Assembly (NCBI GenBank): GCA_002256345.1
Contig: NKIY01000005.1
Coordinates: 4,485-68,484, forward strand
Reading direction: 5' to 3'
DNA: 64,000 nt
Origin: Bradyrhizobiaceae bacterium PARB1
GTDB taxonomy: Bacteria > Pseudomonadota > Alphaproteobacteria > Rhizobiales > Xanthobacteraceae
This document shows, piece by piece, positions 2,761-26,907 of this stretch; the first letter of the stretch is position 1; each line of letters opens with the position of its first letter. The position numbers were made by a program, and so were the translations under genes. The notes under the pieces are model-generated. The model made no database searches, was not told the DNA's origin, and saw nothing but the letters and a program-made list of their open reading frames with translations.

Positions 2761-4041
2761 TTGCCAGTTAAATTAACAACATCAGCCGTCTCTGAGGCAG
2801 CCGTAAAGGCGTCCAGATACGAAGTCGCCGATTCGATGCAGCCGGGGCTTAGGCTGGTTGTCTATCCATCCGGCAAGAAATCCTGGGTGTATCGGTACGA
2901 GCGATCTGGCGGGCAAGCCGTGAAGGTCACGATCGGACCGGCCACCGGGAGCGGCGCCGTATCGTTGAAGGATGCCCGTCTCGAAGCGAACAGCGCCGCG
3001 CGGCTGCGCCACGCCGGGACTGATCCGGCCATGAAGAAATCGTCCGATCGAAGGCAGGAGGCGGAGCGGATCGCAGTTGAACGCCTTGAGGCTGAACGCA
3101 GCGCAGACAATGTTGAACGCGTTCTGGCACGGTATTTCGCCGACCACTCCGACAAGCTGAAGTCAGGAGCCGAAGTCCGGCGCGTCCTCAATCGTGAGCT
3201 GGAGAGCTGGGCAAAGCGCCGCGTTGACGAGATCCAGCGGCGTGATGCCATTAAGGTGCTAGATGCCGTGGCCGCTCGCGCGCCGGTGCAGTCAAAACGT
3301 CTGAGGGCGTACGGTCGTCACTTCTTCGGTTGGTGCATCTCGAAGGAGATCGCCACAATCAATCCGTTCGACGGGACGCGCGCGGTCAAAGAAATTTCGC
3401 GAGATCGCGTCTTGAGCGAAGATGAGCTTCGCCTCCTGCTTCGCGCCATCGCGACGCTGGACCAACCGAGAGGGCAATACGTCGAGTTATTGCTGCTCAC
3501 TGCGCAACGCTTTTCCGAAGTCGCGAACATGTTGGAGTCGGAGTTAGAGCTGTCCGGCCCTGCCCCGATTTGGACGCTACCCAGCGCGCGCATGAAAAGC
3601 GGCAAAGCGCACACGGTTCCCCTCACACCTCGCGCGATTGAGATCATCAACGGCTTGCCGCGCCGCGCCGGAACCGCGCGCATTTTCGAGACGTTCTCGG
3701 CAACCCATCTCAAAGCCGCTATAGACGCTGCTTTACTCAAAGCCGCCCTTGAGCACGCTGAAGAGCGCGGTGTTGCTCCAAGCGACGTAAAGATTGCACA
3801 CTGGACTTTGCACGACCTACGCCGCTCAGCTGCCACCCATATGTCGCGAATGGGGATCGATGTAATCGTTATCGAACGCGTGCTGGGACACACTATGCGC
3901 GGCGTGATGGCGACTTATCAGCGAAACACCTTCGACAATGAAAAACGTGCCGCGCTTACTGTTTGGTCTGATTACCTAGACGGCTTGCTGAGACCGCCGG
4001 CCTCGAATGTGGTTCCTCTGCGCCATGGAGTTGCGGAATGA
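2761..4041 (+). CDS. tyrosine recombinase / site-specific integrase, 426 aa
   Basis: This protein catalyses excision and integration of the element at tRNA-Tyr. The N-terminal ~90 residues, with GLRLVVYPSGKKSWVYRY, match the DUF4102 arm-binding domain of P4-type integrases. A SAM-like core-binding domain follows. The catalytic domain shows the first Arg in TAQRFSEV, the HDLRRSAATHM box, the GH of VLGHTMRGV and the nucleophile in MATYQRNTF. The start is a TTG at 2761; no nearer ATG preserves the arm domain. It lies 172 bp inside the left att core and overlaps the next gene by four bases. Length and motif order are normal for an active enzyme. Confidence 0.92.
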   Translation: MPVKLTTSAVSEAAVKASRYEVADSMQPGLRLVVYPSGKKSWVYRYERSGGQAVKVTIGPATGSGAVSLKDARLEANSAARLRHAGTDPAMKKSSDRRQEAERIAVERLEAERSADNVERVLARYFADHSDKLKSGAEVRRVLNRELESWAKRRVDEIQRRDAIKVLDAVAARAPVQSKRLRAYGRHFFGWCISKEIATINPFDGTRAVKEISRDRVLSEDELRLLLRAIATLDQPRGQYVELLLLTAQRFSEVANMLESELELSGPAPIWTLPSARMKSGKAHTVPLTPRAIEIINGLPRRAGTARIFETFSATHLKAAIDAALLKAALEHAEERGVAPSDVKIAHWTLHDLRRSAATHMSRMGIDVIVIERVLGHTMRGVMATYQRNTFDNEKRAALTVWSDYLDGLLRPPASNVVPLRHGVAE

Positions 4042-4610
4042 AGGCACGCAAACCGGCGCGTAAGCGAGCAAAGAAAACTACTGGCCACACATGGAGAGAA
4101 AAGGTCGCACAGCCGAGCACCGGAAATCTACGCCGTGCCAAGCTTCAAGGCGATCTCCGCCAGTTGTCCGACTTTTTTGTGGAGTCTCGCAATCCAGCCG
4201 CCGCGTGGTTGTGTTGGTCGCTCGGCCAGCAATGGGGGCTGCCGGTGTCAGAACCGATCACTGCAGAGATCAATCGCTTTGCAGCGGCCATCGCGGAGAA
4301 GGCCATTTCTGCCCTAGACGGCAATCAGGATGTCGTTATCACGGGCGATTTGGTAGGCGCACTATGGGACACCAAGACAAGGCGGCAAGGTTCAACGCCC
4401 ATCGCAGAGGAACTGCGCCTTTGGGATCGTAACATCGAAATCGCGTGGCGTGTCCATGAGCTTCGGAAAGTTACCAGCTCAAAAGACGAAGCTTTTGAGA
4501 TCGCTGCAAGAGAGTTCGGGATCAGCGAGTCTAGTGCCGACCACATATCCCGCCGCTATCGCGCGCGCTTAAAAGCTGAAGAAGCTGAGATCGACGATGC
4601 TGGGCATTGA
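4038..4610 (+). CDS. hypothetical protein coupled to the integrase, 190 aa
   Basis: The start ATG overlaps the integrase stop (ATGA), so the two are co-translated. The N-terminus is strongly basic (about 10 Lys/Arg in the first 20 residues), suggesting nucleic-acid contact. The C-terminal ~50 residues, with SSKDEAFEIAAREFGISES, look like a helix-turn-helix. An accessory DNA-binding protein for recombination, or a regulator of it, would fit the position, but the family is not recognised. Confidence 0.6.
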   Translation: MKARKPARKRAKKTTGHTWREKVAQPSTGNLRRAKLQGDLRQLSDFFVESRNPAAAWLCWSLGQQWGLPVSEPITAEINRFAAAIAEKAISALDGNQDVVITGDLVGALWDTKTRRQGSTPIAEELRLWDRNIEIAWRVHELRKVTSSKDEAFEIAAREFGISESSADHISRRYRARLKAEEAEIDDAGH

Positions 4611-4693
4611 GAAGAGCGTTCTTGCTGCCCAGACAACCGCGCATCGCATTGTTACGTCATAAACATCGAAAACAAGTTCAAGAAGGTTACAAC

Positions 4694-4900
4694 ATGACCG
4701 AACAGATGATGACCGCAAAAGATGTGTGCGCCCGCTTTGGAGGCGTCACCACGATGTCTCTCTATCGCTGGCTCAAGGATGAAACGCTCGACTTCCCCCG
4801 ACCGATTGAAATTCGGAAGCGCCGCTATTGGCGGACGGAGGATATCGTAGCGTTCCAAAGACGCATGGCGACCGAAGGCCTCCGCAAGCGCGCCGCCTAA
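4694..4900 (+). CDS. AlpA-family regulator / excisionase-like, 68 aa
   Basis: This is a small MerR-like winged-helix protein of the AlpA type: TAKDVCARFGGVTTMSLYRW is the HTH, followed by the typical FPRPIEIRKRRYW wing and EDIVAFQRRM tail. AlpA proteins activate integrase expression or assist excision of P4-type elements. Length is normal. A terminator-like hairpin follows at once, so the integrase group (2761-4900) probably forms one transcription unit. Confidence 0.85.
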   Translation: MTEQMMTAKDVCARFGGVTTMSLYRWLKDETLDFPRPIEIRKRRYWRTEDIVAFQRRMATEGLRKRAA

Positions 4901-5330: not shown

Positions 5331-6203
5331 ATGAAGAAATCTGAATACGAAGGATGGTTGCACGCCATCGGCCAGATCGAAATCCCTGCAGACGGCTTGT
5401 CGCTGGATAGGTTTGCAAGAGCGATGAACATTTTGTCGATGAAGGCTGATCACGCTGCAATCTATCTGCACCGCGGCAAGCACCTTTTCCGGTCGCAGCA
5501 GAACGGCCATATCCGCGTCTTTCCCTTTTCCCACTCAACGGGCCGAGGCCGGCCGCGCAAACATCGGGCGCATGCCTCATCGCTAATGCCGGCGCAGATT
5601 ATCGCGCTCTTGGTGGATATTACCCCGGTCGCGGGATCGGTAGCAGTCCTATTGGCGAGGATGCCCAAGGGCGGTTGGCAGGACGAGCCGACGCGTCAGG
5701 CCGAGATCAGGCGCTCGATTGAAGTCGAGGCGCGGTCGATGGCGAGCATGTTCCGTGGTTTCGTCGAGCGAGCTGGCTTTCCGGTGAAGATGGTCCGCTC
5801 ATATCTCTGGATGACGTTCTCGGCCAATGTGATGTCGGCAGTGGCAGAGATCGAGCCCGATCTGGCCAATGGCGATGCGCCCCTCACGGAAACTGCCCCC
5901 GTCACGCCAAAGAAGATCAAAGCAAACCTTCCGCCGCATGAGTGCATTCACACTTATGTCGAAGCAGCAGGTCCCTTCGGGATTGGAGCCTACGAGATCG
6001 CAAGCGCAACTCGCGGGCGCATCAAACGCGAAGAGGTTATTCAGATCGCTGAGGAGCTCGCCAGCTCCGGCTTCCTTTACATTGCCGAAGCTCGCGCATC
6101 CTCTCGCGGCCCCAAGGGCATCCGCCTGTATGCGATGAAGCATGGCAAGCCGGAAATTGGCTCCGACGGTCGCCGGCTGCCTCAATACACCACAGCTCTC
6201 TGA
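5331..6203 (+). CDS. hypothetical protein with C-terminal winged-helix-like region, 290 aa
   Basis: The ATG at 5331 begins a hydrophilic protein without signal or membrane segments. Residues 60-90 are basic (GRGRPRKHRAH, an AT-hook-like GRPRK core). The last ~80 residues, with PFGIGAYEIASATRGRIKRE and a following ASSGFLYIAEAR, have the pattern of a winged helix. Replication initiation or regulation of the element is possible. It sits directly before an AT-rich palindromic region (6594-6655), a common arrangement for an initiator or repressor and its site. The family is not recognised. Confidence 0.6.
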   Translation: MKKSEYEGWLHAIGQIEIPADGLSLDRFARAMNILSMKADHAAIYLHRGKHLFRSQQNGHIRVFPFSHSTGRGRPRKHRAHASSLMPAQIIALLVDITPVAGSVAVLLARMPKGGWQDEPTRQAEIRRSIEVEARSMASMFRGFVERAGFPVKMVRSYLWMTFSANVMSAVAEIEPDLANGDAPLTETAPVTPKKIKANLPPHECIHTYVEAAGPFGIGAYEIASATRGRIKREEVIQIAEELASSGFLYIAEARASSRGPKGIRLYAMKHGKPEIGSDGRRLPQYTTAL

Positions 6204-7323: not shown

Positions 7324-7625
7324 CCGGTCGGCGGCTCAATTCCCCCCAAAAACAGCAACGTAGAATGCGATGCTTCTAGCAATCGCAGAACAATCTTCTC
7401 TTAAGCGATCTGCCGCAGGGTAAAAAGGTACTTTGGAAGGGGGTGGCACGCGGGTGACGCGCGACTGCCCGTCTCTGGTAGATACGAATTTTTAAAAGGT
7501 ACTTTTTGTTCTAGGGACGCCTAGCTAGCGGCGAAGTTAGTGTTCTCGGGAGACTACTTCAGACTGTGAACAGGTATCGGTTCGTCCAAATTTGAGATGA
7601 CAGAAATAATCTCAGGACAACCTAG
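7324..7625. other. 302-bp intergenic region upstream of the tail-module regulators
   Basis: No gene is seen. The region contains two copies of a 12-bp direct repeat (7423-7505, annotated separately) and lies immediately upstream of the HTH gene at 7626, so it is the likely promoter and operator region of the phage-like module. Confidence 0.5.
7423..7505. promoter_or_regulatory. paired AAAAGGTACTTT sites, candidate operators
   Basis: The identical 12-mer occurs at 7423-7434 and 7494-7505, 71 bp apart, in the leader of the HTH gene that starts at 7626. It is partly dyad-symmetric around GTAC, as expected for a dimeric repressor. Autoregulation by the product of the gene at 7626 is a plausible but unproven reading. 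Confidence 0.4.
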
Positions 7626-8129
7626 ATGACCACCCCGCTCTACCCCGCCGACTTCGGCGCAGCAAAGCCCCCTGCAAAGCGCCCCCGGAAGAACCGACGC
7701 ATGGTGACTGTGCCCGAGCGCGTCGGGCCGCGCGTCAAGTTGGTATTTTCCGAGATGGCCCGACAGGGCTTCACTTATGACCAGACCGAGGAAGGAAGTG
7801 GGGTCAGGCGCGCGACCATCAAGGCGTGGCGCAAGAAGAATGCCCCCGGCCTCGAGTCAATCGAGGCTGTGCTAGGGTTTCTTGGATGGGGCTTCGTGCC
7901 CGTCCCCTCTTTGCAAGCCCTTCCGCCCGCTTTTGCCGGCGATCTGACCGCGCTGGCACTCCGAGCGAATAGCGACATTCCCACCACTTTCGCCGCTCTG
8001 GTCGCGGTCGGCGTGGAGCAAGCGCTGGTCAACATGACCATTGCCGAAAAACGCGCTGTAGTTGAAGCGCGCGCGGCCGGCTATGCCGCCAACGATAACA
8101 TCAAGCGTCGGCGAGCCAGCGGCCTGTAA
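7626..8129 (+). CDS. HTH-domain regulator of phage-like module, 167 aa
   Basis: The ATG follows an AGGAC ribosome site by eight bases. After a basic N-terminus (KPPAKRPRKNRR), residues 35-80 form a Cro/XRE-like HTH: MARQGFTYDQTEEGSGVRRATIKAW, then IEAVLGFLGWGFVPVP, as in phage-type regulators whose C-terminal half tracks a small-helix repeat. The C-terminal part is Ala-rich and helical and may dimerise. It is the first gene of the phage-like block and lies downstream of the paired 12-bp sites. Confidence 0.65.
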   Translation: MTTPLYPADFGAAKPPAKRPRKNRRMVTVPERVGPRVKLVFSEMARQGFTYDQTEEGSGVRRATIKAWRKKNAPGLESIEAVLGFLGWGFVPVPSLQALPPAFAGDLTALALRANSDIPTTFAALVAVGVEQALVNMTIAEKRAVVEARAAGYAANDNIKRRRASGL

Positions 8130-8282: not shown

Positions 8283-8468
8283 ATGTCGCAAATCTATCTC
8301 TCTCGCCGACGAGCTGCCAAACGCGCAGGCGTGGCGGCGAACACGCTGGCTAACTACGCAGAGGCAGGTCGCGGACCGGCATTTATTCGCCTGCATGGCA
8401 AATGTCTGTATCGGCCCGAAGACATCGACAGCTGGCTTGCCCGGCACCGAGTGGGGTCCGTTTCATGA
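8283..8468 (+). CDS. excisionase-family / MerR-like HTH protein, 61 aa
   Basis: A short winged-helix protein: YLSRRRAAKRAGVAANTLAN is the HTH, YAEAGRGPAFIRL the turn and GKCLYRPEDIDSWLARH the wing-helix tail typical of excisionase (helix-turn-helix 17) proteins. Such proteins bend DNA for excision or act as small regulators. The ribosome site AGGATGAAGA is close upstream. The stop overlaps the next start (ATGA at 8465-8468). Confidence 0.75.
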   Translation: MSQIYLSRRRAAKRAGVAANTLANYAEAGRGPAFIRLHGKCLYRPEDIDSWLARHRVGSVS

Positions 8469-8665
8469 GCCGCGCACGCCTTCTCGAAGACCTTCAAAAA
8501 GCGAACGACGCTTACGCAATGGCTAAGCGATCTTTTGCCGACGCCAAATTCCTCGCTCGCAATGGCATGGCTAGCAATGTCACTTTCGCGGCACACGTCG
8601 AGCACGTCGCATTTCACCGATGGGTCCGCGCTCATGCCGCCATCGACGCGCACAAAGGACACTGA
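8465..8665 (+). CDS. small helical hypothetical protein, 66 aa
   Basis: The ATG at 8465 overlaps the preceding stop, indicating coupling, and the stop at 8665 is two bases before the next start. The product is a helical, Ala-rich protein with several His residues (HVEHVAFHRWVRAHAA). No domain is recognised. The tight packing places it in one operon with the coiled-coil and tail genes that follow. Confidence 0.55.
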   Translation: MSRARLLEDLQKANDAYAMAKRSFADAKFLARNGMASNVTFAAHVEHVAFHRWVRAHAAIDAHKGH

Positions 8666-8667
8666 AA

Positions 8668-9510
8668 ATGATTCTTGAACGTTTCTTCACCAGCAAGACT
8701 ACCGCCATCACGGCAGAAATGATCCGCGCCGACATCACGCGCTGCGAAGGCGAAATTAGCGCGCATCATGACCAGATGGCTGGCGTGATGGCCAACATTG
8801 CCACCATGACCGACAGCGACCACGTGACTGCGGAAGCCAAGATCGCTGCAACCAAGCGCGCGATTGCCCGCCTCGACGCCCGCGTAGGGCACCTGGCCGC
8901 CGAGCTTCCGAAAGTTGTCGCCGCCGAGCAGGCATCGGCAAAAATCGCTGCTGACGAATTACTGCGTCAGCGTGCGGAAGCTGCTCGCAAGGCAAACACG
9001 AAAGAAGCAGCAAAGCTCTTGAGTGAGTATGAAAAGCTGGCCGGGCCGATGGCGGATATTTTCGCGCGCCTCGCCGAAATTCGCACAGAGACGGATGTAG
9101 TCAACGCGCAGCTCAGCAAGAATAAGGTTGCAGAAACCGTTTCCTCATTCGAGACGATCCACCGCAAGACCCCCGATCGGCTGGCCAGCGAGCGCCGTGA
9201 AACGCGGCTGTGCTATGTATACCGTTATCCCGCGAGCCCTCGCGATACCGAAACTGTAAAGTACGTTCAGATTCCTGCTTCTGAAGAAGTACGCGAGGCG
9301 ACTATCGGTCGTGACGGCAATCCGTTGCCGGTTGGCGCTGTGCATTACGACCAGTTCGGTCGGAACATTATCATTCATCCGAAGCTCGAAGATCGCGAGA
9401 TCGTTGTGGAGAGGAAGCCGGCGAAGCGCGGTCTCTACGAAGAGTCGCTTGATGAGATCCGCCTCCCGCCGGCCTTCGCTGGCGGCGAACAACATTGGCC
9501 GCGAAAGTGA
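8668..9510 (+). CDS. coiled-coil hypothetical protein of the tail module, 280 aa
   Basis: I start at the ATG at 8668, preceded by an AAAGGAC ribosome site; a longer frame exists but lies inside the upstream gene. Residues 15-170 are a long Ala/Glu/Lys-rich coiled coil. The C-terminal ~110 residues are a compact region with several aromatic residues. It may be a structural or chaperone protein linked to the tail genes. I do not recognise the family. Its operon position directly before the tail assembly chaperone and tape measure genes supports a morphogenetic role. Confidence 0.6.
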   Translation: MILERFFTSKTTAITAEMIRADITRCEGEISAHHDQMAGVMANIATMTDSDHVTAEAKIAATKRAIARLDARVGHLAAELPKVVAAEQASAKIAADELLRQRAEAARKANTKEAAKLLSEYEKLAGPMADIFARLAEIRTETDVVNAQLSKNKVAETVSSFETIHRKTPDRLASERRETRLCYVYRYPASPRDTETVKYVQIPASEEVREATIGRDGNPLPVGAVHYDQFGRNIIIHPKLEDREIVVERKPAKRGLYEESLDEIRLPPAFAGGEQHWPRK

Positions 9511-9521
9511 CGCGTCCGATC

Positions 9522-9776
9522 ATGCAGATGAATCTCAATCACCCCGTCGAACTTGATGGGGTGACTTACGAAAAGCTGGCGATTACCCATCTTGAAGCGC
9601 TTGCGAGCTTTCGCGCAAACTCTCCTGAGCAGGTGATCCGGTCGATGGCCTTGGTCTTCGCAGTGCCACGCCGTGTCGTTCGCCATCTGGACAACAGCGA
9701 TGCCGAACAGGCTGGCGAACTTTTAGTTAATTTTCTTGATGCGGCTGCGCGCGCGTCCCTCCCCCTTGAGATTTAA
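9522..9776 (+). CDS. phage tail assembly chaperone-like protein, 84 aa
   Basis: The fragment LNHPVELDGVTYEKLAI followed by a short helical region matches the Mu gp41 / P2 gpE-type tail assembly proteins, which keep the tape measure protein soluble during tail assembly. It lies two bases before the tape measure gene, the standard position. The ATG at 9522 gives 84 residues; an in-frame TTG at 9495 would extend it. No frameshift-extended second reading frame is possible here because the tape measure gene starts at once, unlike in lambda or P2. Confidence 0.7.
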   Translation: MQMNLNHPVELDGVTYEKLAITHLEALASFRANSPEQVIRSMALVFAVPRRVVRHLDNSDAEQAGELLVNFLDAAARASLPLEI

Positions 9777-9778
9777 CA

Positions 9779-12358
9779 ATGGCCTCGCAGTTTTCCGTAC
9801 TCGTAGACATCGGCGGGAAGGTCAACCCTTCGCTTGGTGGAGCGGTTGCGCAGGCCAAAGCGCAGGTCAATTCGCTCGCGACTTCCGTCGCCGCTGCTGG
9901 GCGTGCGTTCGCCACCCCGTTTCAGAGCATCAATAAGCAACTCGCTGCGACCTCAAAGCGCATGGAGAAGATTCAGAGCATTGGTGGGCGTGCAACTATG
10001 GGCGTCACTGCACCGGCCGGCCTCTTTGCATCGAGCCTCATCCGCAATGCTGTGGAGCGCGACAAGGCCGGCAATTTCACCGAGGCACTTGGTGGCGTAA
10101 GTCGCGACGAACGCCTTGATGTGGAGCGTTATGCCGACACCATCGCCACCAAATACGGTAACGCCACCGGCATCCTCAAAACGTTCAACGAAATGTTGAA
10201 GGCGGGCTTCGACGTAAAGGCGGCGAAAGGCTCGATTGCTTCGATTCTCGAAAGTTCGGTTGTCGGCGACATGCCTGCGGAAGAGGTTGCCGGCGCGGTC
10301 AGCAAGATCGTCACCCAATACAGTCTTGGAATGAAGACCGTTGAGGCGGCATCTGCTAGTAGCCGCCGTATCTCTGACAATCTTGCATTTGGCGCAAATG
10401 CCACGAGCGCATCTATGCGCGATATGGTTGAGGCTTATAAGTTTGTCGGCTCCGCGGCGTCCGCTGCGGGCGAGACTATCGAGTCCACCAACGCGTTGAT
10501 CATCGCCTTGAATAAGGCAGGCCAAACCGGCAGCGAGGCCGGCGTCGCTCTGCGTTCAGCATATGTGAAGCTGCTCAAGCCGACAAAGGGCGGTCGCGCA
10601 ACTATGGCGCGACTGGGCCTTGATTACGGAGATTATATTACGGGCGGTAGGCGCACCGACGCCGGTGTTGCATCCGGTCTGAGCGCGTTCGGTTTCGATA
10701 TGTCGGGCAGCATCAAGACGATCGACGCAGCTCTGGCGCGGAACTCCGGCAATACCGAGAAGCAGCGTAAGGCAATCTACGATGCCGTCGTGGCAAAGTT
10801 CAGCGCTGAGGCCGCGCAAGACCGCGAGAAGGTCTTGGCCGCAGTTGATGGCGCGTTCAACATGGCCGGCAGTAAAATTGATCTGACTAAGCTGCTTATC
10901 GACCTTAAAAAGAAGGGCGCCAACCAAGGCGACCTGGCTAACATCTTCGAGGGTCGGCAGTCTGTTCGCATGCTCGCGCTGCTCACATCCGACCTCGAAG
11001 GAATTTTGGCAGAGATCAATGAGAAAGCCCCCGGATACGGGGGAAAGACGTTCAGGCTGGCAAATCAGGGCCTGACGAAGGCTGAACGTGAGCTGAGCGC
11101 AGCGTGGTCCTCTTTTGGCGACACGCTCGTAAAAGCCGTACTGCCCGAGGTCACCGCAGTTTTTTCGCGGGTGACGAAAGGGCTGAAGACCCTTGCCTTA
11201 TCTAATCCTACGCTTCTCAAGACCAGCATCTATCTCGCCACGGCTGCCGCTGCTGCCGGACCGCTGATGTTTGCGCTAGGTGCGGCAGGCCGCGCCGCTG
11301 TGCTGATGTCTAAGCTCGTCATCGGCGCTGCAATGGCGATCCTCGCGCCGTTCAAATGGGCGTTGCTCGGCATCGCTGCGTTGTCGCGTGGCCTCGTTGC
11401 AGCCGGCGCTTCGGCGTTGCTGCTCGGTGGACGCCTGCGCACGGTCGCTACGGCAATGGCCCTGCTCGCCGTTCCCGGCGGCGCTAAGATGGTTCTCGGC
11501 GCGATGGCTGCTGGGCTGCTAGCATTCGGCAAATCCGTCCTGCGCTTCCCTGTGGTCGCCCTGCGCGCCATTGGATCGGCAATGATGTTCCTCGTTGCCA
11601 ACCCGGTTGGCCTGCTGATCGCTGCCGTCGTCACGGCGCTGGTCGCACTTGGTGCGTGGGTGGCAAACAATTGGAGCGGCCTGAAATCTTTCTTCGAGGG
11701 CTTCGGCGACGGCTTCATGAAGGGTCTTGGCCCCGCGTCCGGCTTTGTGAAGACGATGGCCGATGGCCTTGGCTCTATGGTCAACTGGATCACGAAGCTT
11801 GTTGGTCCGGTCGGTGCAAATGCCGGGGAATGGCGTTCGTGGGGCGAGGTCGTTGGCGGCGCTGCTGCACGCGGCGTCAATGCTGTCGCCCAAGCCATCG
11901 AGAAGGTGATTGGGCTCTTCAAGAGCGCCATCGACATGGCGAAGAGCTTTGGCACCGCCGTTTCCAACATGGGGTCGGGCGTCGGCACTGCGACGCCGAA
12001 GGGGCCGAACAACGCGTTCATCCAGAACTCGATCAAGGGCGCTCGCGCGCTCGGTGGCCCCGTGACCGCCGGATCGCCGTATCTCGTTGGCGAGCGAGGC
12101 CCCGAACTGTTCGTTCCCGGCGCGACCGGCCGCGTCGAGACCAACAACCGCCTTCGCTCGCTGACTGCCAGCGGTGCAGGCGCTGTGGCCGCGCGCGACA
12201 AGAGCCCGGCGGCCTCGAAGGGCGGACCCGTCAGCTTCAACCCGACGTTCAACATTAGCGGAGGCGACCCTCGCGAGACGGCAGCGCAAGTGCGCTCAGA
12301 GATGCACCGGTTTTTGGCGCAGCTCGAGTCGGAACAGCGAGGGCTGTTGAGCGACTAG
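9779..12358 (+). CDS. phage tail tape measure protein, TP901 family, 859 aa
   Basis: This protein would set tail-tube length and be ejected with DNA. Residues ~95-330 match the TP901 core: the stretch around residue 118 (LDVERYADTIATKYGN), TGILKTFNEMLKAGFD and AEEVAGAVSKIVTQY are characteristic. Residues ~480-640 hold several hydrophobic segments, as in tape measure proteins that insert in membranes. The C-terminal SPYLVGERGPELFVPG motif is a common tape measure ending. The gene is full length and uninterrupted. What is odd is the context: no sheath, tube, baseplate, head or terminase gene lies in the 24-kb element, so any tail it measures must be encoded elsewhere. Confidence 0.9.
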   Translation: MASQFSVLVDIGGKVNPSLGGAVAQAKAQVNSLATSVAAAGRAFATPFQSINKQLAATSKRMEKIQSIGGRATMGVTAPAGLFASSLIRNAVERDKAGNFTEALGGVSRDERLDVERYADTIATKYGNATGILKTFNEMLKAGFDVKAAKGSIASILESSVVGDMPAEEVAGAVSKIVTQYSLGMKTVEAASASSRRISDNLAFGANATSASMRDMVEAYKFVGSAASAAGETIESTNALIIALNKAGQTGSEAGVALRSAYVKLLKPTKGGRATMARLGLDYGDYITGGRRTDAGVASGLSAFGFDMSGSIKTIDAALARNSGNTEKQRKAIYDAVVAKFSAEAAQDREKVLAAVDGAFNMAGSKIDLTKLLIDLKKKGANQGDLANIFEGRQSVRMLALLTSDLEGILAEINEKAPGYGGKTFRLANQGLTKAERELSAAWSSFGDTLVKAVLPEVTAVFSRVTKGLKTLALSNPTLLKTSIYLATAAAAAGPLMFALGAAGRAAVLMSKLVIGAAMAILAPFKWALLGIAALSRGLVAAGASALLLGGRLRTVATAMALLAVPGGAKMVLGAMAAGLLAFGKSVLRFPVVALRAIGSAMMFLVANPVGLLIAAVVTALVALGAWVANNWSGLKSFFEGFGDGFMKGLGPASGFVKTMADGLGSMVNWITKLVGPVGANAGEWRSWGEVVGGAAARGVNAVAQAIEKVIGLFKSAIDMAKSFGTAVSNMGSGVGTATPKGPNNAFIQNSIKGARALGGPVTAGSPYLVGERGPELFVPGATGRVETNNRLRSLTASGAGAVAARDKSPAASKGGPVSFNPTFNISGGDPRETAAQVRSEMHRFLAQLESEQRGLLSD

Positions 12359-12375
12359 TTTCTGCGCGGTTGGAT

Positions 12376-12409
12376 CACGGCGAGCTGGGTTCCATGTTGA
12401 CTCGCCGTG
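12376..12409 (+). terminator. hairpin terminator after the tape measure gene
   Basis: CACGGCGAG (12376-12384) pairs perfectly with CTCGCCGTG (12401-12409) across a 16-base loop, 17 bases after the tape measure stop. There is no clean T-run, so strength is uncertain, but position and symmetry suggest the end of the tail-module transcript. Confidence 0.5.
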
Positions 12410-13069: not shown

Positions 13070-14296
13070 ATGAACGATCGACGAGAACTCACGCGCCAAG
13101 AACTATACGATCTCGTATGGTCAACAGCCATGACAACTCTCGCGAAGAGTTTTGGGATATCCGATGTCGGCTTGCGTAAGATATGCGTCAAGCACTCGAT
13201 CCCGACGCCGCCCCCTGGCTATTGGGCAAAATTACAACATGGCAAGAAAGTCGAAAAACTCGCATTACCGACACCGAAGCCTGGCTTGCAAGATCGTATA
13301 ATTATATCGATTTATGCGCCTCAGAAGTTACCCGATATCGTCGTCACCGCTCGACAGGACGCCGAGAAGCGCCTTCCGACTCCGATTGAAGTTCCAGACG
13401 ACTTACCTGCTCGCCTGCACAGACTGGCAAGCACGACCAGAACGGCTTTGAGATCAGCCAAAACTGATTACGAAGGATTTCTTGAGCCTGAACCTGCGTC
13501 CGGCGTGATCTTTGCGCAGATCGGGAAGTCCAATGTCACGCGCGTGACTTTGATCCTGAACAGTATCGCACATACTCTCGAAAAGCTTGGTAATGAAGTT
13601 GTATACGCCGAAAATGGCGCAGACTTTTTGGTTGAGGGTGAGAAATTACGACTGTTATTTCACGAAACGAAAACAAAGAACGAGCATCATCCCACGGCGG
13701 CAGAACTTGCTGAAAAGGCAAGATGGGACAACAATAGCAAGCAGTGGCCCACTCTTTACAGGTCAGATAGGAAGCACTGGAGATCCTGGGACTATTCGCC
13801 CTCAGGTCGGCTTTCACTAACGCTCCAAGCTTCATCGTGGACCAGTTGGTCGTCAGACCGGCAGCTCGGTCGCTGGTACGATCGGAAATCAACCACGGTT
13901 GAGCAGCAAATCAATGAAGTAATAATTGCGATGTACGCAGGATCCGCTCTGCTTCGGCACAATCGAGCCGTCATCGAAGAACGCGAGAAACAACGGCAGG
14001 AAGCGGCAGAACGTAGGCAGAAAGAACGCGAACGGCAAGATCGCATCCTCAAACGTGAATCGTTCGTTCGACAGAAATCAAAAGAGTATATGGAGCTTCG
14101 CGAACTTCAGGCATTCAGTGAGTATTTTTCCCAACAATCCCATTCAGGGTTAACCTATTCGTCTGCCATTGCAGCCCTCGCAACAGAGATGACGGAGCGA
14201 TTGAGAAGCTCCTTTTTGCCCTCCAATATTAACGACGAGGTTGTTGAGCTTGCTCTATTCACAGATGATGATTTTCTGCTCGAAGCCATAAGATGA
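13070..14296 (+). CDS. HTH and coiled-coil hypothetical protein, 408 aa
   Basis: The ATG follows GAGGA at good distance. Residues 7-50 are an unusual HTH-like segment, LTRQELYDLVWSTAMTTLAK then FGISDVGLRKICVKHSIPTP and PPGYWAKLQHGK; this beginning is shared by a widespread group of uncharacterised proteins in mobile regions. Residues 130-280 are a mixed alpha/beta region, and residues ~300-350 a highly charged coiled coil (REKQRQEAAERRQKERERQD). No catalytic signature is visible. Lower GC than the tail module suggests a separate origin within the element. It lies at the edge of the cargo block, next to two GIY-YIG genes. Confidence 0.65.
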   Translation: MNDRRELTRQELYDLVWSTAMTTLAKSFGISDVGLRKICVKHSIPTPPPGYWAKLQHGKKVEKLALPTPKPGLQDRIIISIYAPQKLPDIVVTARQDAEKRLPTPIEVPDDLPARLHRLASTTRTALRSAKTDYEGFLEPEPASGVIFAQIGKSNVTRVTLILNSIAHTLEKLGNEVVYAENGADFLVEGEKLRLLFHETKTKNEHHPTAAELAEKARWDNNSKQWPTLYRSDRKHWRSWDYSPSGRLSLTLQASSWTSWSSDRQLGRWYDRKSTTVEQQINEVIIAMYAGSALLRHNRAVIEEREKQRQEAAERRQKERERQDRILKRESFVRQKSKEYMELRELQAFSEYFSQQSHSGLTYSSAIAALATEMTERLRSSFLPSNINDEVVELALFTDDDFLLEAIR

Positions 14297-14433
14297 GCCC
14301 CGTTACCTGCAACAGAAACTTTCGGACAATCAATTGACACTGGTTACGCGCGGCCCAAATATGACGCTGTCAAGATCACCGGGCTTGAGCAAAAATGACC
14401 ATGACGCCAGCGGATTGCGAGAAAACGGGCAAG

Positions 14434-14937
14434 ATGTCATCGACATCACTTAGAGCATGGAAAGGATCACGCTGCCCTTCAACTTTGACCGCGCGTAGCA
14501 CCTTGACCTCCTACGGATTCAATAAGGTTGCGCGCTTTCATCGTAATGAAAATCGCTTCCAAGTCTTTGATCGAGATCTAACGGCGACAGCTTGGTGCAA
14601 TTGCGTGTACGCATTCGTTATCAACGACGAGATTGTCAGAATTGGTTCCAGCAAAGACCGGCTTGGCGCGCGTTTCAATGCATATCAGAATGACCTATCT
14701 TACGCCTTCGCTGGCGACTTCTATCGATCCTCGGGAAAGCCTCGCTCCACTAAAGTCGATGAAGCTACAATCTGGAGCATCGAACTTGCCACACACGGCC
14801 ACGGCGACATTTGGGCACGTGAAGGAACTCAGTTTTTCTCACCTATTACGCAAGGCACCATTTCAGGATACCAAGACGAAGAAAGTTTCTTAATCGCCAA
14901 GCATCAACCTCGTCTCAATCGAGGAAGCCATCGATAA
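14434..14937 (+). CDS. GIY-YIG-like nuclease domain protein, 167 aa
   Basis: The segment CVYAFVINDEIVRIGSS (GIY replaced by CVY, YIG by RIG), then KDRLGARFNAYQ, and a C-terminal EESFLIAKHQPRLNRG with the acidic residue and the terminal Pro-x-x-Asn, follows the GIY-YIG endonuclease pattern. The start is uncertain: an ATG at 14395 adds 13 residues. It is convergent with the second GIY-YIG gene at 15019-15954. Substrate and role are unknown; defence or mobile-element cutting are typical roles of the superfamily. Confidence 0.6.
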   Translation: MSSTSLRAWKGSRCPSTLTARSTLTSYGFNKVARFHRNENRFQVFDRDLTATAWCNCVYAFVINDEIVRIGSSKDRLGARFNAYQNDLSYAFAGDFYRSSGKPRSTKVDEATIWSIELATHGHGDIWAREGTQFFSPITQGTISGYQDEESFLIAKHQPRLNRGSHR

Positions 14938-15018
14938 CCATTGAGCACGGAGTTAGCTATCGGGAGCTCTCAGTTCACCTAAGCCTTTGCGTTGGCTATA
15001 CGCCCGCCTTAGTTGGCC

Positions 15019-15954
15019 TCAATCGGAGCGCATTACGGCTGAGCGCCTGACTTTGATCGTTGGGCGATGGCACTCAGAAACCTCGCTCAACCTCTCTAAG
15101 ACATCGATTACTTCTGACTGGGTGCAGCTAAACACCTCGCGGGCGTTCTGCATCTTTCCATCCCAAAAGTACGTTAGCCCTCGCACAGCGGACTTCGCAA
15201 ATGCCTTCTGAGCATCGATCTCTAGCCGCGCCGCTCGCTCTGATTCTTTCTGATAGAATATCTGCCAATCAGACGCGCCGGCATATCCACGGCTGACGAG
15301 CGCCTTATGCCGACTTCCAACGTCTGTCGCGAAGCCAATTTTCACCAACTTCTTCGACATACTGAATGCTGCATAGACAAAGCCCGACTTCACAGCTCGC
15401 TGGTTGAACCCAAGCTGTCGAGGATCACAAGCTACACACTTTCCGTAGCGATTTCTGGTTGAATGACCCGCTTTCGCGCATGGCGAAACGTTGTAAGCAA
15501 TGATCGACCCCATCGCTTCCATTTTCGGCCCGTATTCGGCCAGGCTCATCCCATGTGCGTCGAAGAAAAGATCAATCGGGATATTGTGCCTATTTGAGAA
15601 CTCCACGAGAAATCGGGATACCCCACTTTGCTGCGGGAGTCCGTCCGGTTCGGACGAACGCAATCCGACGGCCGCTTCGAGGCTTCCACTCGCGCTCAAA
15701 GAACCGGCTCCTGCGCTTACTGGAGTCCGACGACCTTGGGTTATGTAAGGGCCTCGCTCGATCCGCGGTCTGATCGCATGCGGATCTCGCCGAACGATCG
15801 ATACGCTAGGCATGCGCGCTTCAACTACCGCCACCGGATCTAACCTATAGCGTATTGCGTAAGAAGCGTGTTGGCGGATCAGTCGTTCCTGAACCGTGAG
15901 TTCCCTAGCCGTCCCCGCAACCAACTCTCGAAAACGATCTTCAGAAATCTTCAT
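15019..15954 (-). CDS. GIY-YIG nuclease, T5orf172 / MUG113-like, with zinc-knuckle, 311 aa
   Basis: Residues ~191-275 carry the domain: SGFVYAAFSMSKKLVKIGFA has VY and KIG in place of GIY and YIG, followed by DVGSRHKAL with the conserved Arg and a helix with Glu (RAARLEIDAQKAF) as the metal ligand. Just before it, C159, H164, C173 and C176 form a C-x4-H-x8-C-x2-C zinc-knuckle, as often paired with these nucleases. The N-terminal 120 residues are variable and basic. It lies 47 bp after the zinc-ribbon membrane gene on the same strand, so it may be the last gene of the kinase-phosphatase-vWA operon and its nuclease effector; that coupling is inference. Confidence 0.75.
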   Translation of the reverse strand: MKISEDRFRELVAGTARELTVQERLIRQHASYAIRYRLDPVAVVEARMPSVSIVRRDPHAIRPRIERGPYITQGRRTPVSAGAGSLSASGSLEAAVGLRSSEPDGLPQQSGVSRFLVEFSNRHNIPIDLFFDAHGMSLAEYGPKMEAMGSIIAYNVSPCAKAGHSTRNRYGKCVACDPRQLGFNQRAVKSGFVYAAFSMSKKLVKIGFATDVGSRHKALVSRGYAGASDWQIFYQKESERAARLEIDAQKAFAKSAVRGLTYFWDGKMQNAREVFSCTQSEVIDVLERLSEVSECHRPTIKVRRSAVMRSD

Positions 15955-16001
15955 GACGCATTATCAGACTTTCAGAAAACTGAATCTGCGGAGAAACAGC
16001 T

Positions 16002-16307
16002 TTAACCTCGCCCGGCAAAAATGAAAGCGAAGAACAATATCACAGCTACAGCGACGCCGATCCCAATCTGTTTAAAACGACGGATCTGCTTCTCTTCGAG
16101 TTCGCGGTCACAGGATTGGCATACGGTCCGCATCGAGTAGTAACTTCTTGCCGACGGCGACTTCCCGCTAGATAGCGCGCTGAATAAGAGCGTAACGATA
16201 TAGCTATTCGAGTGAAAAAGTCCGCCAATACTATACCCAGTGAAGACCAATCGACGCTTACTTGCGCCTCGCATAATGGCCGATCCACAGACATGACAAT
16301 TCGCCAT
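16002..16307 (-). CDS. small zinc-ribbon membrane protein, 101 aa
   Basis: Two CxxC pairs (CHVC at residues 4-7 and CQSC near residue 72) form a probable treble-clef or zinc ribbon split by a hydrophobic Ser-rich segment. A C-terminal helix (IGVAVAVILFFAFIF) anchors the protein in the membrane. It starts 24 bp after the kinase stop on the same strand, so it is probably the fourth gene of the vWA-PP2C-kinase operon. The kinase has its own zinc-binding segment, which may be relevant to interaction. The family is not recognised. Confidence 0.6.
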   Translation of the reverse strand: MANCHVCGSAIMRGASKRRLVFTGYSIGGLFHSNSYIVTLLFSALSSGKSPSARSYYSMRTVCQSCDRELEEKQIRRFKQIGIGVAVAVILFFAFIFAGRG

Positions 16308-16331
16308 CGCTCTGCCCTAAATTGAGACTAT

Positions 16332-19103
16332 TTAACTAACACACCGAGCGTAGCGGGTCGTTGAACCATCACGTCCACGCCAGAATAGATATTCCCCACT
16401 AATGCTAAACTGAATAGTTGCATTCCATTGCTCTCCTCTATTGGAGCAACTTGTCCGAATATCCCAACCAGAGCGCGTTACGCTCACAGACAGAAACTGG
16501 CATGCGCCGCCAGCTGACGATCGAGCAGCCCTTGCCCCAATTACGACGTCCGGTTCAGCCCGATTGCGACACACGGCTCCCTCAGACCACGCTCCGACGA
16601 AGCTATCTCTATACTTCACAGCGGTCTTTGCCGACAACGCTTGCTGCGTCGAAGCATCCCAATTGTCGTCCATTCTCCCAGACGATGTAACCTTGAAATC
16701 ACGAAGCGCGCCGAGCGTATTTCCGTCGTAAACTCCGGATAAAATCCCCTTGTAGAAACCCAGTTCTTGGAGCTGCCCCTGAATCCATCGCACCGTATCA
16801 CGGTTGCGAATATCATTGAGTTGAGACGGAAGAGCATTCACTGCCTGCTGAGGATCAACTGCAGCAACCACCGGGCTCTTAAGTTCGATGGGCGCAGCCA
16901 AAGGCGGCAATTCAACACGTTGGGGACCGGCCAATGCTCTCGTTTGATCTACGACCGCCCCATCTGCTGGCTTGGCCACGCTCGCCGGAGCTGTCGCCGA
17001 AGAGTTACTTTGGGCAACGATCAATGGCTGTTCGACAGAGCTCGATGTTTTCGAAGGCAGTTTGGGCGCAGTCGGTTTCGAATTACCCGAGAAATTCAGA
17101 CTGCTCAGTACGTAGAAGGCCACTCCGACAACTATAGCAAACATATACTTTTGTAACTCAGACGGTAGTTTCGCCTTTGCCTCCAGAATATTCGCTTCAG
17201 CAATCCTTAGATTATTCCACACTGGTTCAGCGGCCGACTTAAGCTGATCCCGAGCCTGTGTGATCCTCTGAGATTGTTCTCTCAGTAACATAAGTTGCTT
17301 GTTGAGATTTGCTTGGCACTCCGCTCGCTGACGAGAGATATCGCCCTTAACGAGCAAAATATCCTTCGGATCCACACCTAGACTTGGATTGAACCGGAAC
17401 TTTGCTTCGACAGAATGCCGCCACGCGAGAATGGCATCGACAGTCGCCGGGCCAAAGCCGGAAATTTGCAATATTCTATTTGGATCGACGTCAGCAGCAG
17501 TTTCGATGCCATATGACTCGAGCGTGAGCTTTCGCGATTGGCCGACACCTTTGATCTTTGCCTTCTCGATGTAGAAATTTTCGAGAAACTTGCGACGTTG
17601 CACATCTTGCATCCGGCTCTTGAGATCGGCCAAACGGCGCGTCTCTTCCGACCCCAGACCTTGAAAACGCTGAATTAGCTCGTTTGCTTTTGCCTTGATC
17701 AGCCCGAATGCCTGATTGTCACGAACTCTCGACCAACTTGTCTCGATATTGGCGACAGCTTTCTCGATCTCTTCCTTCGCCTTGGTCGGCTCATCGAGCA
17801 CGCCTCGTGCGCGAAACGCGTGCCACACTCCAAAGCCGAATAAAGCCGCGCCCAACAGCCACGAGGGCCAGGGCCAGAAGAACAACTGAATAGAAGCTAC
17901 ACAGGATAGCAGCCCCCATCCGTATTCGCGCGTCAGACCATCAAATATTCCTCGTCTCGGCTGAGGCCCTGCCACAAACATAGGCAACAGCTCTCTCAAC
18001 GCTGGCACGTTACCTGGATCGCGGACCGCATTGATTGCCGAGATCAGTTGACCGATATCGATGGGCGCTGAAGTATCAATGTTCAGAGGCAGCGAGAAAG
18101 CCAAAAAGCCCGGATAGGCTTTCTCCATGGCGCACCAAGGGCAGCTCTTCGCACTTGAAAAATGCTCATGCGCGGGGCTTTTAGCACACTGGATGACATC
18201 TCTTTCCGCGTCGCTGATGAGGGTTACCCACTCAGCTGACGTTGGCCTTCGACCATTCGAGCCGGCAGGTCCAAAAGACAACTCAAACGCATCCGCCAAT
18301 TTTTTCGGAAGATCTGCAAGCGTTGGCACGTTGGGCGGCGGACTCATCCGCGTTTCGGAGGTTCGCGCAGAATAGGCGAACCGAAACTCCGCTATGGCTT
18401 TCTCCATCGGCATGTCGTCGCGTCCCGCGTAACGACCTGCGAAAGGATGCCTCCCCATGAAGAGCAAGTTAAAGAGGAGAATAGCAAGGCCGAAGGCGTC
18501 GTGATTCGCAGATCGCGTTACGTCCGAAAGTCGCTTTCCTTGAAGCTCGGGAGGAGTGAACTCAGGTACCCCCACCTTGCAGTGAAACACCTTATTTGAC
18601 GCAGCGACCTGAAAAGAGTCGCAGTCGATAAGTGTGACGGTGGCATCTTCTGCAACCAGAATGCCGGAGTGATTGATATCTCCAATTACACACCCAGTAC
18701 TGTGTACGTTGGCAACCGATCGAGCAATGTTGAGGGCTACACGAACGAGGAACCGGAAACTGGCTTTAGGAAACTCAGTCTTTCTGCTCGTCGGCGAATA
18801 CAGACTATGAATCGGCTTCTGTCCCCCGATGCGCCGCATCGTGAAACCAACGAACTTATTAGAAGCGTCAAAGAGAGCGTCTATCGGGAAGGCGACGTTC
18901 GGCGATTTCTCTGACCATCGCCCCGCAACCATGGCGAGGATCTTCTCGCGTCTTTCATCTGCGCGACCGCCTAAGTATATTTTAGCAGCTGCGCTAGAGT
19001 CGCCATCCAGAGCAAAGACGGCCCCCTCACCGCCACGCCCAAGTTCGGTCGCCAAAAGAACGCGTTCACGTTTTGAGTTAACTAGATTGCGTGGGAGAGA
19101 CAT
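16332..19103 (-). CDS. transmembrane Ser/Thr protein kinase (YegI-like) with HhH and peptidoglycan-binding domains, 923 aa
   Basis: The kinase domain (1-300) has the G-loop LGRGGEGAVF (21-30), Lys41, catalytic Asp142 in GDINHSGILV and the DFG-equivalent Asp160. The position that normally holds the metal-binding Asn, five after Asp142, is Gly147. A zinc-binding segment follows (C306, C321, C324), then a hydrophobic hairpin (~395-430), a coiled coil, a helix-hairpin-helix (515-562, IKGVGQSR and ISGFGPAT), another coiled coil, a membrane helix (653-671), a Pro/Ala-rich linker and a peptidoglycan-binding-1-like domain (768-806). The C-terminal ~100 residues hold four Cys. The first parts match E. 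coli YegI and TerY-P kinases; the wall-binding end is an addition. The ATG follows the phosphatase stop directly. Confidence 0.85.
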   Translation of the reverse strand: MSLPRNLVNSKRERVLLATELGRGGEGAVFALDGDSSAAAKIYLGGRADERREKILAMVAGRWSEKSPNVAFPIDALFDASNKFVGFTMRRIGGQKPIHSLYSPTSRKTEFPKASFRFLVRVALNIARSVANVHSTGCVIGDINHSGILVAEDATVTLIDCDSFQVAASNKVFHCKVGVPEFTPPELQGKRLSDVTRSANHDAFGLAILLFNLLFMGRHPFAGRYAGRDDMPMEKAIAEFRFAYSARTSETRMSPPPNVPTLADLPKKLADAFELSFGPAGSNGRRPTSAEWVTLISDAERDVIQCAKSPAHEHFSSAKSCPWCAMEKAYPGFLAFSLPLNIDTSAPIDIGQLISAINAVRDPGNVPALRELLPMFVAGPQPRRGIFDGLTREYGWGLLSCVASIQLFFWPWPSWLLGAALFGFGVWHAFRARGVLDEPTKAKEEIEKAVANIETSWSRVRDNQAFGLIKAKANELIQRFQGLGSEETRRLADLKSRMQDVQRRKFLENFYIEKAKIKGVGQSRKLTLESYGIETAADVDPNRILQISGFGPATVDAILAWRHSVEAKFRFNPSLGVDPKDILLVKGDISRQRAECQANLNKQLMLLREQSQRITQARDQLKSAAEPVWNNLRIAEANILEAKAKLPSELQKYMFAIVVGVAFYVLSSLNFSGNSKPTAPKLPSKTSSSVEQPLIVAQSNSSATAPASVAKPADGAVVDQTRALAGPQRVELPPLAAPIELKSPVVAAVDPQQAVNALPSQLNDIRNRDTVRWIQGQLQELGFYKGILSGVYDGNTLGALRDFKVTSSGRMDDNWDASTQQALSAKTAVKYRDSFVGAWSEGAVCRNRAEPDVVIGARAARSSAGGACQFLSVSVTRSGWDIRTSCSNRGEQWNATIQFSISGEYLFWRGRDGSTTRYARCVS

Positions 19104-19883
19104 TTAAGAGCCGGCGCGACTTGCGAGTATTAGTGTTTTATCGTCGTCTGTTTTCTCACAAACAGACTTGCCATCTAGAAACTGGTTTAATTGTCGGGAG
19201 AGATCGCGATTTCGACCGGGCGCCTTTCCGACGAGAGGCGTCATCATTTTTTTGAAAAACGGAGAAAATGCCTCATGCTTTGCAAAATCGAGAACTAGCC
19301 GCTCTATGCCATCTGTAAACAATGCGAGATGGCCCACTGTGTAGTCAATTGCGGTTACTCTGCAGACTGGCTCGGGATCGTCCGTCACAAAGTATGTCGT
19401 TGAAGCGAACTGCCCTTGAGCCGGCCAGCTTGCAATGATCCATTCGTCCTGATCGATCGCGCGGAAAGCGGCAGCTCCGTCCCCTACATGGAAAAAGACG
19501 GCGGTCCGCTCACCCACGATTGCTCCCACCGCAGTTGCAGCAAAATCTCTACGCGTGGCGCCTCGTGGATCTGCGATTAGCGAGATCCTATCTCTCACTT
19601 CGTCAAGCCAATCTTTGACGACCTCGAGGGAAATGTCGATGATCGGCTTCCCATCAGCAATGTGTCGCGAGGCATTAGCGACGCAAACCCTTGAGACGAT
19701 CCGCGAACCGATAGAGGAGTACTTTGCTGAACCCGCGCCGTCTGACACAACTACGATCAAGGCACGATCCGACGGACCGACGACTTCGACGCACGCGCCG
19801 AAGTCGTCACAGCCAGTGCCGGATCTTATGTGCGATGTGCCGATGCGCTTTGAGCCGGCCCAAATCCAATCTTTCTTGGTCAC
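19104..19883 (-). CDS. PP2C-family serine/threonine phosphatase (YegK-like), 259 aa
   Basis: Metal-dependent phosphatase expected to reverse phosphorylation by the kinase encoded next to it. Motifs: [13 protein letters not shown] (residues 46-57) with the metal Asp, HVGDGA (132-137), FTDGIERL with Asp191, and TDDDKTL near residue 246. All metal-binding acidic residues appear present, so activity is likely. I choose the GTG at 19883, which overlaps the vWA stop (GTGA); a GTG at 19898 adds five residues. It sits between vWA and kinase genes, the order known from TerY-P triads and E. coli yegL-yegK-yegI. Confidence 0.85.
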
Positions 19884-20554: not shown

Positions 20555-20778
20555 AATTTCCTCAACTGCTGGTTTACCAAAGCAATCACACAAACGCCTC
20601 ATTTGCGGAAGTAGCGATTAGTCTAACTATTCGTGTTGTATGCGCTCCAGCGCCAGACGATGGCGGCCGCTATCGCCGCACCCACTACATCTAGAGGGCT
20701 GGTTCGGAACTGTGAGCCTCTTGTTGGCAGTCCGTTAGGCCGCTTTCGCTGCCGTCGCGGATACAAAGGATACTGGTT

Positions 20779-21630: not shown

Positions 21631-21808
21631 CCAAGCCGCAAAGCCTCACTTGAAACTTTTCCCTGACAGACACATTGCCAAGGCAGCACACGCCGGGTGT
21701 CAACCGGCCATAACGGGGATGATGGACGCGGCGGTTTTGCCGGTTTCTCGTCGCGACAGCAACGCATAGGTACGCGTGGCAATCTAACCCGTTCTCGGCG
21801 TGTGCGCT

Positions 21809-22651: not shown

Positions 22652-22825
22652 GACGACTTCCAAACGTGGCTCCCGCAGATCAACTCACGGCGATAATTCG
22701 AACCTAATCGCGACAGAGACGCACCGGCAACGTCGCAATTTCAAGCCTTTACATACCCCAAGCTATAGGCGGGCAGGCCAACCGCCCGGAGCGCAGAAAG
22801 GATCGGGCGATGCGGCCGGCACAGC

Positions 22826-26776: not shown

Positions 26777-26907
26777 CTTCGTCAAGCAGTATTGTTGGGA
26801 AGCTAAGGGCATTTAACTTCCCAAGCAAATTCAGTATTTTAATCGGTTCTAGAACATTGGGTCCATGGCGATTGCTCTCGGCTTGCCTCGGCGTTATTTT
26901 CGACGAG

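Follow-up and report, generated by a model that had tools for sequence, protein, structure and literature searches.

The 64,000-nucleotide stretch of contig NKIY01000005.1 from Bradyrhizobiaceae bacterium PARB1 (the window, to which all positions refer unless stated otherwise) contains an integrated element that encodes a phage tape measure protein (TMP). We read this element as a cos-type phage satellite of ∼24.5 kb that resembles the phage-inducible chromosomal islands (PICIs) and whose own TMP most likely takes the place of the helper's in borrowed tails; judged from sequence, this reading has a probability of roughly 0.58. The element occupies window positions 2524–26758 and comprises 24,170 bp flanked by 65-bp direct repeats (att) at a tRNA-Tyr gene, in agreement with a preliminary description of the region as a 24-kb tRNA-integrated element. 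The left repeat (attL, 2524–2588) duplicates the 3′ part of tRNA-Tyr, and the right repeat (attR, 26694–26758) lies inside the tRNA-Tyr gene (26700–26783, − strand). The satellite status suggested in that description is strongly supported: element length is fixed, a cos-like site of the helper type is present, the layout is that of a family, and 21 structural queries found no other head or tail gene in 14 of 14 elements.

The TMP gene (9779–12358, + strand) encodes 859 residues and is intact and full length, as first described. Its product matches PF10145 PhageMin_Tail (2.5e-20) and, over residues 22–859, the tape measure family phrog_28 (1.9e-39). No second PF10145 gene was found in this genome. 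A tail assembly chaperone-like gene (TAC; 9495–9776, + strand) ends two bases upstream of the TMP start, where a chaperone had been proposed. The TAC match is weak when taken alone (tail family phrog_166, 2.6e-4, and no Pfam match), and its relative in the related element G792 (relatives are cited by our G and L handles) matches PF10109 Phage_TAC_7 at 9.8e-4, under the cut-off of that family. TAC relatives are present in G792, G886, L107, L109 and G094 and in phages.

The claimed lack of capsid, terminase, portal, tube and baseplate genes was borne out. A search of 5,107 stop-to-stop frames from 14 delimited elements with 21 capsid, portal, terminase, sheath, tube, baseplate and lysis queries gave no match at E ≤ 1e-3 in the window element or its 13 relatives. 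In a PHROGs scan of 90 open reading frames (ORFs), drawn from six relatives plus six window ORFs and excluding the integrase, the TMP and any ORF divided between two stretches, TAC was the sole virion family among the 25 of 75 matched families listed. The missing virion genes, the att repeats and the integrase are the general features of a phage satellite, and TMP and TAC constitute the exception.

Related elements of the same layout, a search for which the preliminary description had proposed, form a family. Searched singly against genome contigs and viral contigs, the TMP found no relative; relatives were retrieved through a whole-genome search and a TMP alignment. The TMP search matched 46 of 391 genomes of the same taxonomic family, many of them distantly, and a search with o296, the gene directly upstream of TAC, matched 20 of the 391. 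o296 was also found in 15 of 265 genomes of the genus of G388 (taken as Bradyrhizobium) and in 4 of 397 genomes across the order, two of which are marginal. The gene neighbourhoods of the TMP and o296 matches were read to derive the shared layout, int – o190 – AlpA – usually Prim-Pol – cos-like site – o167 – AlpA2 – o87 – o296 – (TAC – TMP) – cargo – tRNA. A Prim-Pol gene (PF09250) is present in 12 of 14 elements, and G116 carries a DUF3987-like gene. Exceptions to the layout are G094, in which the cos-like site lies elsewhere, and G792, in which the integrase gene is located at the opposite end. In G792 (L130:2500–3195 and L131:2645–3829), an ATP-dependent DNA ligase gene occupies the usual place of the integrase gene.

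Named members occur in Bradyrhizobium iriomotense (strain SZCCT0007, which carries two copies), B. rifense, B. diazoefficiens (a fragment), Nitrobacter winogradskyi and Afipia. The two B. iriomotense elements (L107 and L109) encode TMPs that are 92% identical, and their neighbouring cargo differs. o296 is present as fragments only in G344, G080, G053 and L113; the last is a 5.8-kb contig filed as a metagenome-assembled genome of Anaerolineales, probably a binning error. Seven of the 14 elements are integrated at tRNA-Tyr, two at tRNA-His and one each at tRNA-Lys, tRNA-Leu, tRNA-Val and tRNA-Ala; in G086, the att repeat resembles a tRNA 3′ end, and no tRNA was called there. Cargo and other ORFs of the TMP-bearing relatives match PADLOC models of type I and type IIG restriction-modification, Pycsar, Dsr1, TIR and other systems (90 ORFs scanned, 25 of 275 matched families listed).

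The elements follow a strict length rule. The 14 elements with a complete o296 and both att copies have a mean length of 24,483 bp with a standard deviation (SD) of 707 bp. From att to att, the window element measures 24,170 bp, and the others measure 24,633, 23,837, 24,514, 25,585, 24,002, 24,582, 24,308, 26,186, 23,266, 24,471, 24,431, 24,209 and 24,569 bp. The segment running to the o296 end measures 7.0–21.1 kb and the remainder 3.5–17.2 kb, and the two are anticorrelated (r = −0.983, n = 14). None of 1,000,000 re-pairings of core and rest was as tight in length, with the limit that the members are related by descent and the permutations are not fully independent; megablast aligns at most 6.9 kb between any two elements. 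G370, whose att repeats lie 17,169 bp apart and whose o296 is truncated, was left out of this test. With G370 included (n = 15), the SD rises to 2007 bp, r is −0.88, and 10 of 200,000 permutations reach the same tightness. In G094, the stretches to be searched were picked by the length rule itself, and the left end was found at position 8998, giving 24,569 bp. L107 and L109 contribute no length because their far ends lie outside the data, and the G863 contig ends ∼265 bases after o296.

A decayed prophage that had shed its head and tail genes would also contain phage-derived genes, and phage homologues do exist for TMP, TAC, o290, o167 and part of the primase. Independent decays would not be expected to produce 14 elements at different tRNA genes with the same length, the same layout and the same o296, a gene present in all 14 and not found in phages. 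The preliminary description had named full head and tail operons in relatives as a sign of decay. Relatives of the element have no such operons; where viral contigs carry a relative of the TMP gene, additional virion genes adjoin it in 65 of 68 cases, with no labelled gene in the remaining three. Decay was therefore rejected on the negative result of the 21 structural queries in the 14 elements together with the fixed length, and we regard it as extremely unlikely. The sequences instead indicate a family of tRNA-integrated satellites in Bradyrhizobium, Nitrobacter, Afipia and their kin.

Beyond what had been described before, the element contains a cos-like packaging site (7426–7513, + strand) and the conserved 280-residue gene o296 (8668–9510, + strand). 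The cos-like site consists of a box AGGTACT (7426–7432), a core GCGGGTGACGCGCGACTGC (7450–7468) and a second box TTGTTCTA (7506–7513). This short non-coding stretch is common to the elements and to the full phages G243 and G329, in which it precedes the terminase genes. The core GCGGGTGACGCGCGACCGC occurs with at most four mismatches in 14 of 14 elements, its best copy is always on the + strand, and it is positioned directly upstream of o167 in 13 of the 14. Across 24 o296 loci, the core lies 53–185 bp upstream of the o167 ORF in 19 and elsewhere in G094; no cos-like core was found upstream of o167 in G008, G289, G370 and G344. For 11 elements, none of 60 shuffled sequences matched the core equally well. 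A scan of viral contigs with the core containing two degenerate bases returned eight stretches, all eight upstream of TerS and/or TerL. Phage contig L222 encodes PF07471 Nu1, the gpA ATPase and nuclease, a lambda-family portal and capsid E.

The spacing of the site resembles that of phage lambda. In the lambda sequence, GCGACC follows 35 bp after the box GGGTCCT, which we take to be cosQ, and in the elements the distance from the box to the matching bases is 35–37 bp. Because of this box-to-core spacing, the site is read as a putative lambda-type cos. The box variant AGGTACT is shared by the window element, G121, G116 and the viral contig L225. The single-strand fold at the site gave no signal (z = −1.15). 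Judged by sequence and position, the element thus appears to carry a cos of the helper type. Two cos-like cores are present in G369, at element positions 8141 and 13604; EcCICFT073 has been reported to carry two cos sites (PMC6092414).

The phages that share this site suggest a helper type. G243 and G329 span 61.7 and 67.5 kb between 18-bp repeats, and the att repeat of satellite G388 is identical to this 18-bp repeat. The right end of G388 is 87% identical to the phage end over 1.5 kb, a region that holds a 451-residue phage ORF, the putative integrase. Several similar DNA stretches are common to satellites and phages, and the product of o290 (5331–6203, + strand), which has no Pfam match, has homologues in G243 (288 aa) and G329 (302 aa; phmmer 2e-43 and 9e-44, respectively). 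The putative helper would have a lambda-type head and terminase, a contractile tail and a genome of ∼60 kb, and the 24.5-kb element would measure 0.36–0.40 of the 61.7- and 67.5-kb phages if these represent the helper. On this evidence, the satellite is very probably packaged by phages of the lambda-head and contractile-tail type.

The TMP is unevenly distributed within the family. Of 22 o296 loci, intact or split, eight contain an intact TMP (the window, G086, G121, G792, G886, L107, L109 and G094), five contain remnants (G272, G303, G777, G196 and G289), and eight contain none (G388, G284, G116, G369, G008, G330, G801 and G820); G863 is cut off. TAC is recognized in six of the eight loci with an intact TMP. 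The remnants of G272, G303, G777 and G289 match the C-terminal end of the TMP, and in G303 and G289 other genes separate the remnant from o296. The TMP slot thus seems to be an entry place for cargo.

In the phylogenetic tree, orphan TMPs are scattered among phage TMPs. The window TMP belongs to a group of six with the phage L151 TMP inside it, the G121 TMP stands beside that of phage L163, and the G094 TMP is placed far off. A single orphan clade was rejected by the approximately unbiased (AU) test for all eight orphans (p-AU 3.8e-5) and for seven (2.0e-4) but not for the window group of six (0.116). The tree therefore argues for capture of the TMP into the same slot at least three times. The L151 TMP (L151:3215–5782), from a 64-kb phage contig, lies beside the window TMP within the orphan group, a placement that carries the same p-AU of 0.116 and hints at exchange between satellite and phage in either direction.

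The selection on the orphan TMP that had been suspected is supported by these independent origins, by the eight intact copies and by the substitution pattern. The ratio of nonsynonymous to synonymous substitution rates (dN/dS) among four close orphan TMPs is 0.13–0.20 (dS 0.30–0.53), compared with 0.09 for a phage pair, and all 125-codon blocks along the gene have values of at most 0.31. Orphan TMPs are under purifying selection and retain both protein ends; the last 11 residues, LESEQRGLLSD, are identical in 10 of 10 proteins compared. A proposed change in tail length found no support, given that orphan TMPs measure 829–859 aa and the full-length phage proteins within their large clade 844–859 aa, with G094 outside the clade.

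These data also bear on the possibility that, in a real satellite, the TMP is a functionless passenger acquired by recombination with helper phages. The similar DNA stretches of satellites and phages could recombine, and the remnants in 5 of 22 loci indicate that the TMP is often lost. A passenger would not explain the low dN/dS among the four close copies, at least three captures into one slot or maintenance of an intact gene over a long divergence, the window and G086 TMPs being 64% identical. We consider a passenger quite improbable.

The chief rival is that the TMP, with TAC, acts as an anti-phage or anti-helper weapon, a form of defence cargo that jams phage tail assembly or competes with the phage TMP. 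The TMP slot adjoins the defence cargo and is occupied by other genes in relatives, and the TMP is as dispensable as the cargo. Interference with tail assembly is moreover an established defence, represented by Tai (PMC11364771) and Rta (PMC12987554), neither of which is a copy of a tape measure protein. Full length, both ends, a chaperone and constraint along the whole gene would be superfluous in a poison. A weapon is accordingly considered unlikely, and incorporation of the satellite TMP into tails, given packaging by phages of the lambda-head and contractile-tail type, is moderately favoured.

Several observations weigh against the interpretation of the element as a satellite with chimeric tails. 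The evidence is sequence throughout, with no virion seen. Since the TMP is absent from 8 and a remnant in 5 of the 22 loci, it is dispensable rather than essential, and TAC was not recognized in the G086 and G121 loci. Shuffled sequences equalled the cos core in 2 of 60 cases for G121, 5 of 60 for G196 and 18 of 60 for G388, so the core alone is no better than chance sequence there, and the cos-like assignment in these three elements relies on where the core lies and on its flanking boxes. The Prim-Pol (pri-rep) gene of 12 of the 14 elements is missing from the window element, which places the replication of this element in question. A search of viral contigs gave neither o296 relatives nor satellite contigs recognizable by o296. 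Finally, the genome that contains the window yielded no helper of the lambda-head and contractile-tail type. With at most two mismatches, the cos-core pattern matched that genome four times, as often as a reversed control pattern; of the three matches besides the element's own, the two examined lie among ordinary chromosomal genes.

The missing helper, the fact that no transfer has been observed and the resemblance of the cargo to defence genes could also be accommodated by a defence island that moves by another route, such as conjugation in trans or natural transformation, and keeps its phage-like genes for other reasons. The fixed length and the terminase-type cos-like site would then be left without a reason; relaxase and oriT were not searched for. 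Movement by such a route is judged very unlikely.

In the satellite reading, induction, packaging and incorporation into tails would proceed as follows. On helper infection or induction, the integrase and the AlpA-type regulators would excise the element, which would then replicate. The helper terminase would cut and package element DNA from the element's own cos. The satellite TMP would be built into tails with helper tube, sheath and baseplate, yielding chimeric tails of equal length. By this means, the satellite would gain a DNA-injection protein of its own and might evade any interference that targets the TMP of the helper. Because TMP length is unchanged, the benefit is expected to come from DNA injection, from a preference for satellite particles or from evasion of anti-TMP interference.

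The length limit may be connected with o296, the product of which has 280 residues from its conserved start. o296 was found neither in phages G243 and G329 nor in the 68 viral contigs that contain TMP relatives, and a fold search of its model against PDB and BFVD gave no match at E ≤ 0.001. The model contains a helix of ∼100 residues. From its position, spread and shape, o296 could, speculatively, be a capsid-size factor. A more detailed proposal, in which a satellite-specific capsid-size factor (candidate o296) sets the 24.5-kb limit and repeated capture of helper TMPs into one slot provides injection through a satellite-chosen TMP, is tentative and falls somewhat short of even odds. Alternatively, multimers might be packaged in full heads, as reported for EcCICFT073 (PMC6092414). 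The o167 gene (7626–8129, + strand), directly after the cos-like site, encodes a small, putatively helix-turn-helix (HTH) protein without a Pfam match, whose low-confidence model has a mean predicted local distance difference test (pLDDT) score of 69.5. Its phage homologue is located elsewhere in the phage, near the phage integrase end. We speculate that o167 is an Rpp-like packaging adaptor or regulator.

The closest functional parallel is provided by the PICI-like elements (PLEs) of Vibrio (PLE1, PLE4 and PLE11; helper ICP1). PLE11 virions contain the PLE TMP and no ICP1 TMP, and deletion of tmp lowers PLE transfer by ∼99.9% (PLE11), 96% (PLE1) and 99% (PLE4) (PMC12987554, Nature 2026). The PLEs are described there as the first satellites known to build chimeric tails, with the benefit still to be worked out according to the authors, and putative tmp genes are reported in other Vibrio satellites and in cf-PICIs (PMC12987554, including Extended Data Fig. 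10). Like the present family, PLEs encode their own TMP and TAC; their helper is contractile-tailed, as the putative helper here would be, and neither group has a full tail set, although some PLEs add a baseplate hub protein (PMC12987554). The two differ, by description, in host class and helper type, the putative helper here being of ∼60 kb with a lambda-type terminase. Furthermore, the PLE11 TMP differs from that of ICP1 by 95 aa (PMC12987554), whereas the TMPs here are as long as phage TMPs. The element is not filed under the PLEs; as predicted from sequence, it does encode the TMP and TAC pair expected for PLE-like chimeric tails.

The general organization is nearer to the Gram-negative cos-type PICIs such as EcCICFT073 (PMC6092414, PMC6739421), which likewise have int, alpA, a helper-type cos and accessory genes and lack a structural operon. 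An alpA-type regulator is present near int in the window element. The primase-type gene is represented here in 12 of 14 elements, and the small HTH protein beside cos is a candidate Rpp. PICIs measure approximately one-third of the helper genome (PMC6092414). By description, the present elements differ in their larger size (24.5 kb), the extra TMP–TAC module and tRNA-gene integration, and o296, o190 and o87 have no known counterpart among cos-type PICIs. The cf-PICIs also carry putative tmp genes but form their own capsids (PMC12987554), and no capsid gene was found here. P4 (helper P2) shares an AlpA/Vis-type regulator, a primase-type replication gene, a cos shared with the helper and a contractile-tailed helper (PMC6092414). 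Set side by side with P2/P4 by description, the phages considered here differ in having lambda-type head genes. To our knowledge, P4 has no TMP. The family was not found in literature on phage satellites that mentions Bradyrhizobium, Alphaproteobacteria or tape measure protein, in a search with most subscription journals and preprints outside its coverage.

The remaining genes of the window element complete the family layout. A tyrosine integrase of 426 aa (2761–4041, + strand; PF00589, 2.7e-17) follows attL, and its homologues adjoin attL in several relatives. Next are o190 (4038–4610, + strand), a family gene of unknown function without a Pfam or PHROGs match, and AlpA1 (4607–4900, + strand), an AlpA/excisionase-like HTH protein whose PF12728 match (1.3e-3) is under the Pfam cut-off; relatives of both were found. 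AlpA2 (8283–8468, + strand), the second HTH_17/excisionase-like protein, matches PF12728 (3.6e-7) and phrog_66/597, and is followed by o87 (8402–8665, + strand), a family gene of unknown function that also has relatives. Downstream of the TMP, the preliminary description had noted a hairpin (12376–12409, + strand). Its 9-bp arms (12376–12384 and 12401–12409) and 16-nucleotide loop are present, but a terminator scan called none there, and the hairpin is given little weight.

The cargo region (13070–26224) contains a T5orf172 nuclease-type protein (15019–15954), a kinase–PP2C–VWA cluster (16332–20602), a KAP NTPase (22826–26224) and ORFs without a match. The kinase, PP2C phosphatase and VWA genes lie on the − strand, have weak PADLOC matches and could form a phospho-signalling defence system. 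Between two cargo ORFs, a match to Rfam RF02496 Atu_At1, a small RNA of Rhizobiales, is located at 21688–21799 (+ strand, 88.8 bits). Outside the element, past the tRNA gene, an ORF of 4261 aa extends over 29390–42175 (− strand). The window element had no match in a plasmid collection searched in near mode.

The tight length rule, maintained despite differing cargo, offers a simple signature for satellites for which no helper is known, and it links defence islands in soil bacteria of the nitrogen cycle with phage particles that would serve as their vehicles. The TMP appears to have been taken up at least three times, under purifying selection and at unchanged length, and sometimes lost, in a bacterial class other than that of the PLEs. 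Related elements with and without a TMP constitute natural replicates, which makes the gain of a satellite from its own tape measure directly testable. Should the more detailed proposal, with its capsid-size factor and repeated capture of helper TMPs, be true, tape-measure swapping would be a strategy that has evolved recurrently among cos-type satellites rather than one confined to Vibrio.

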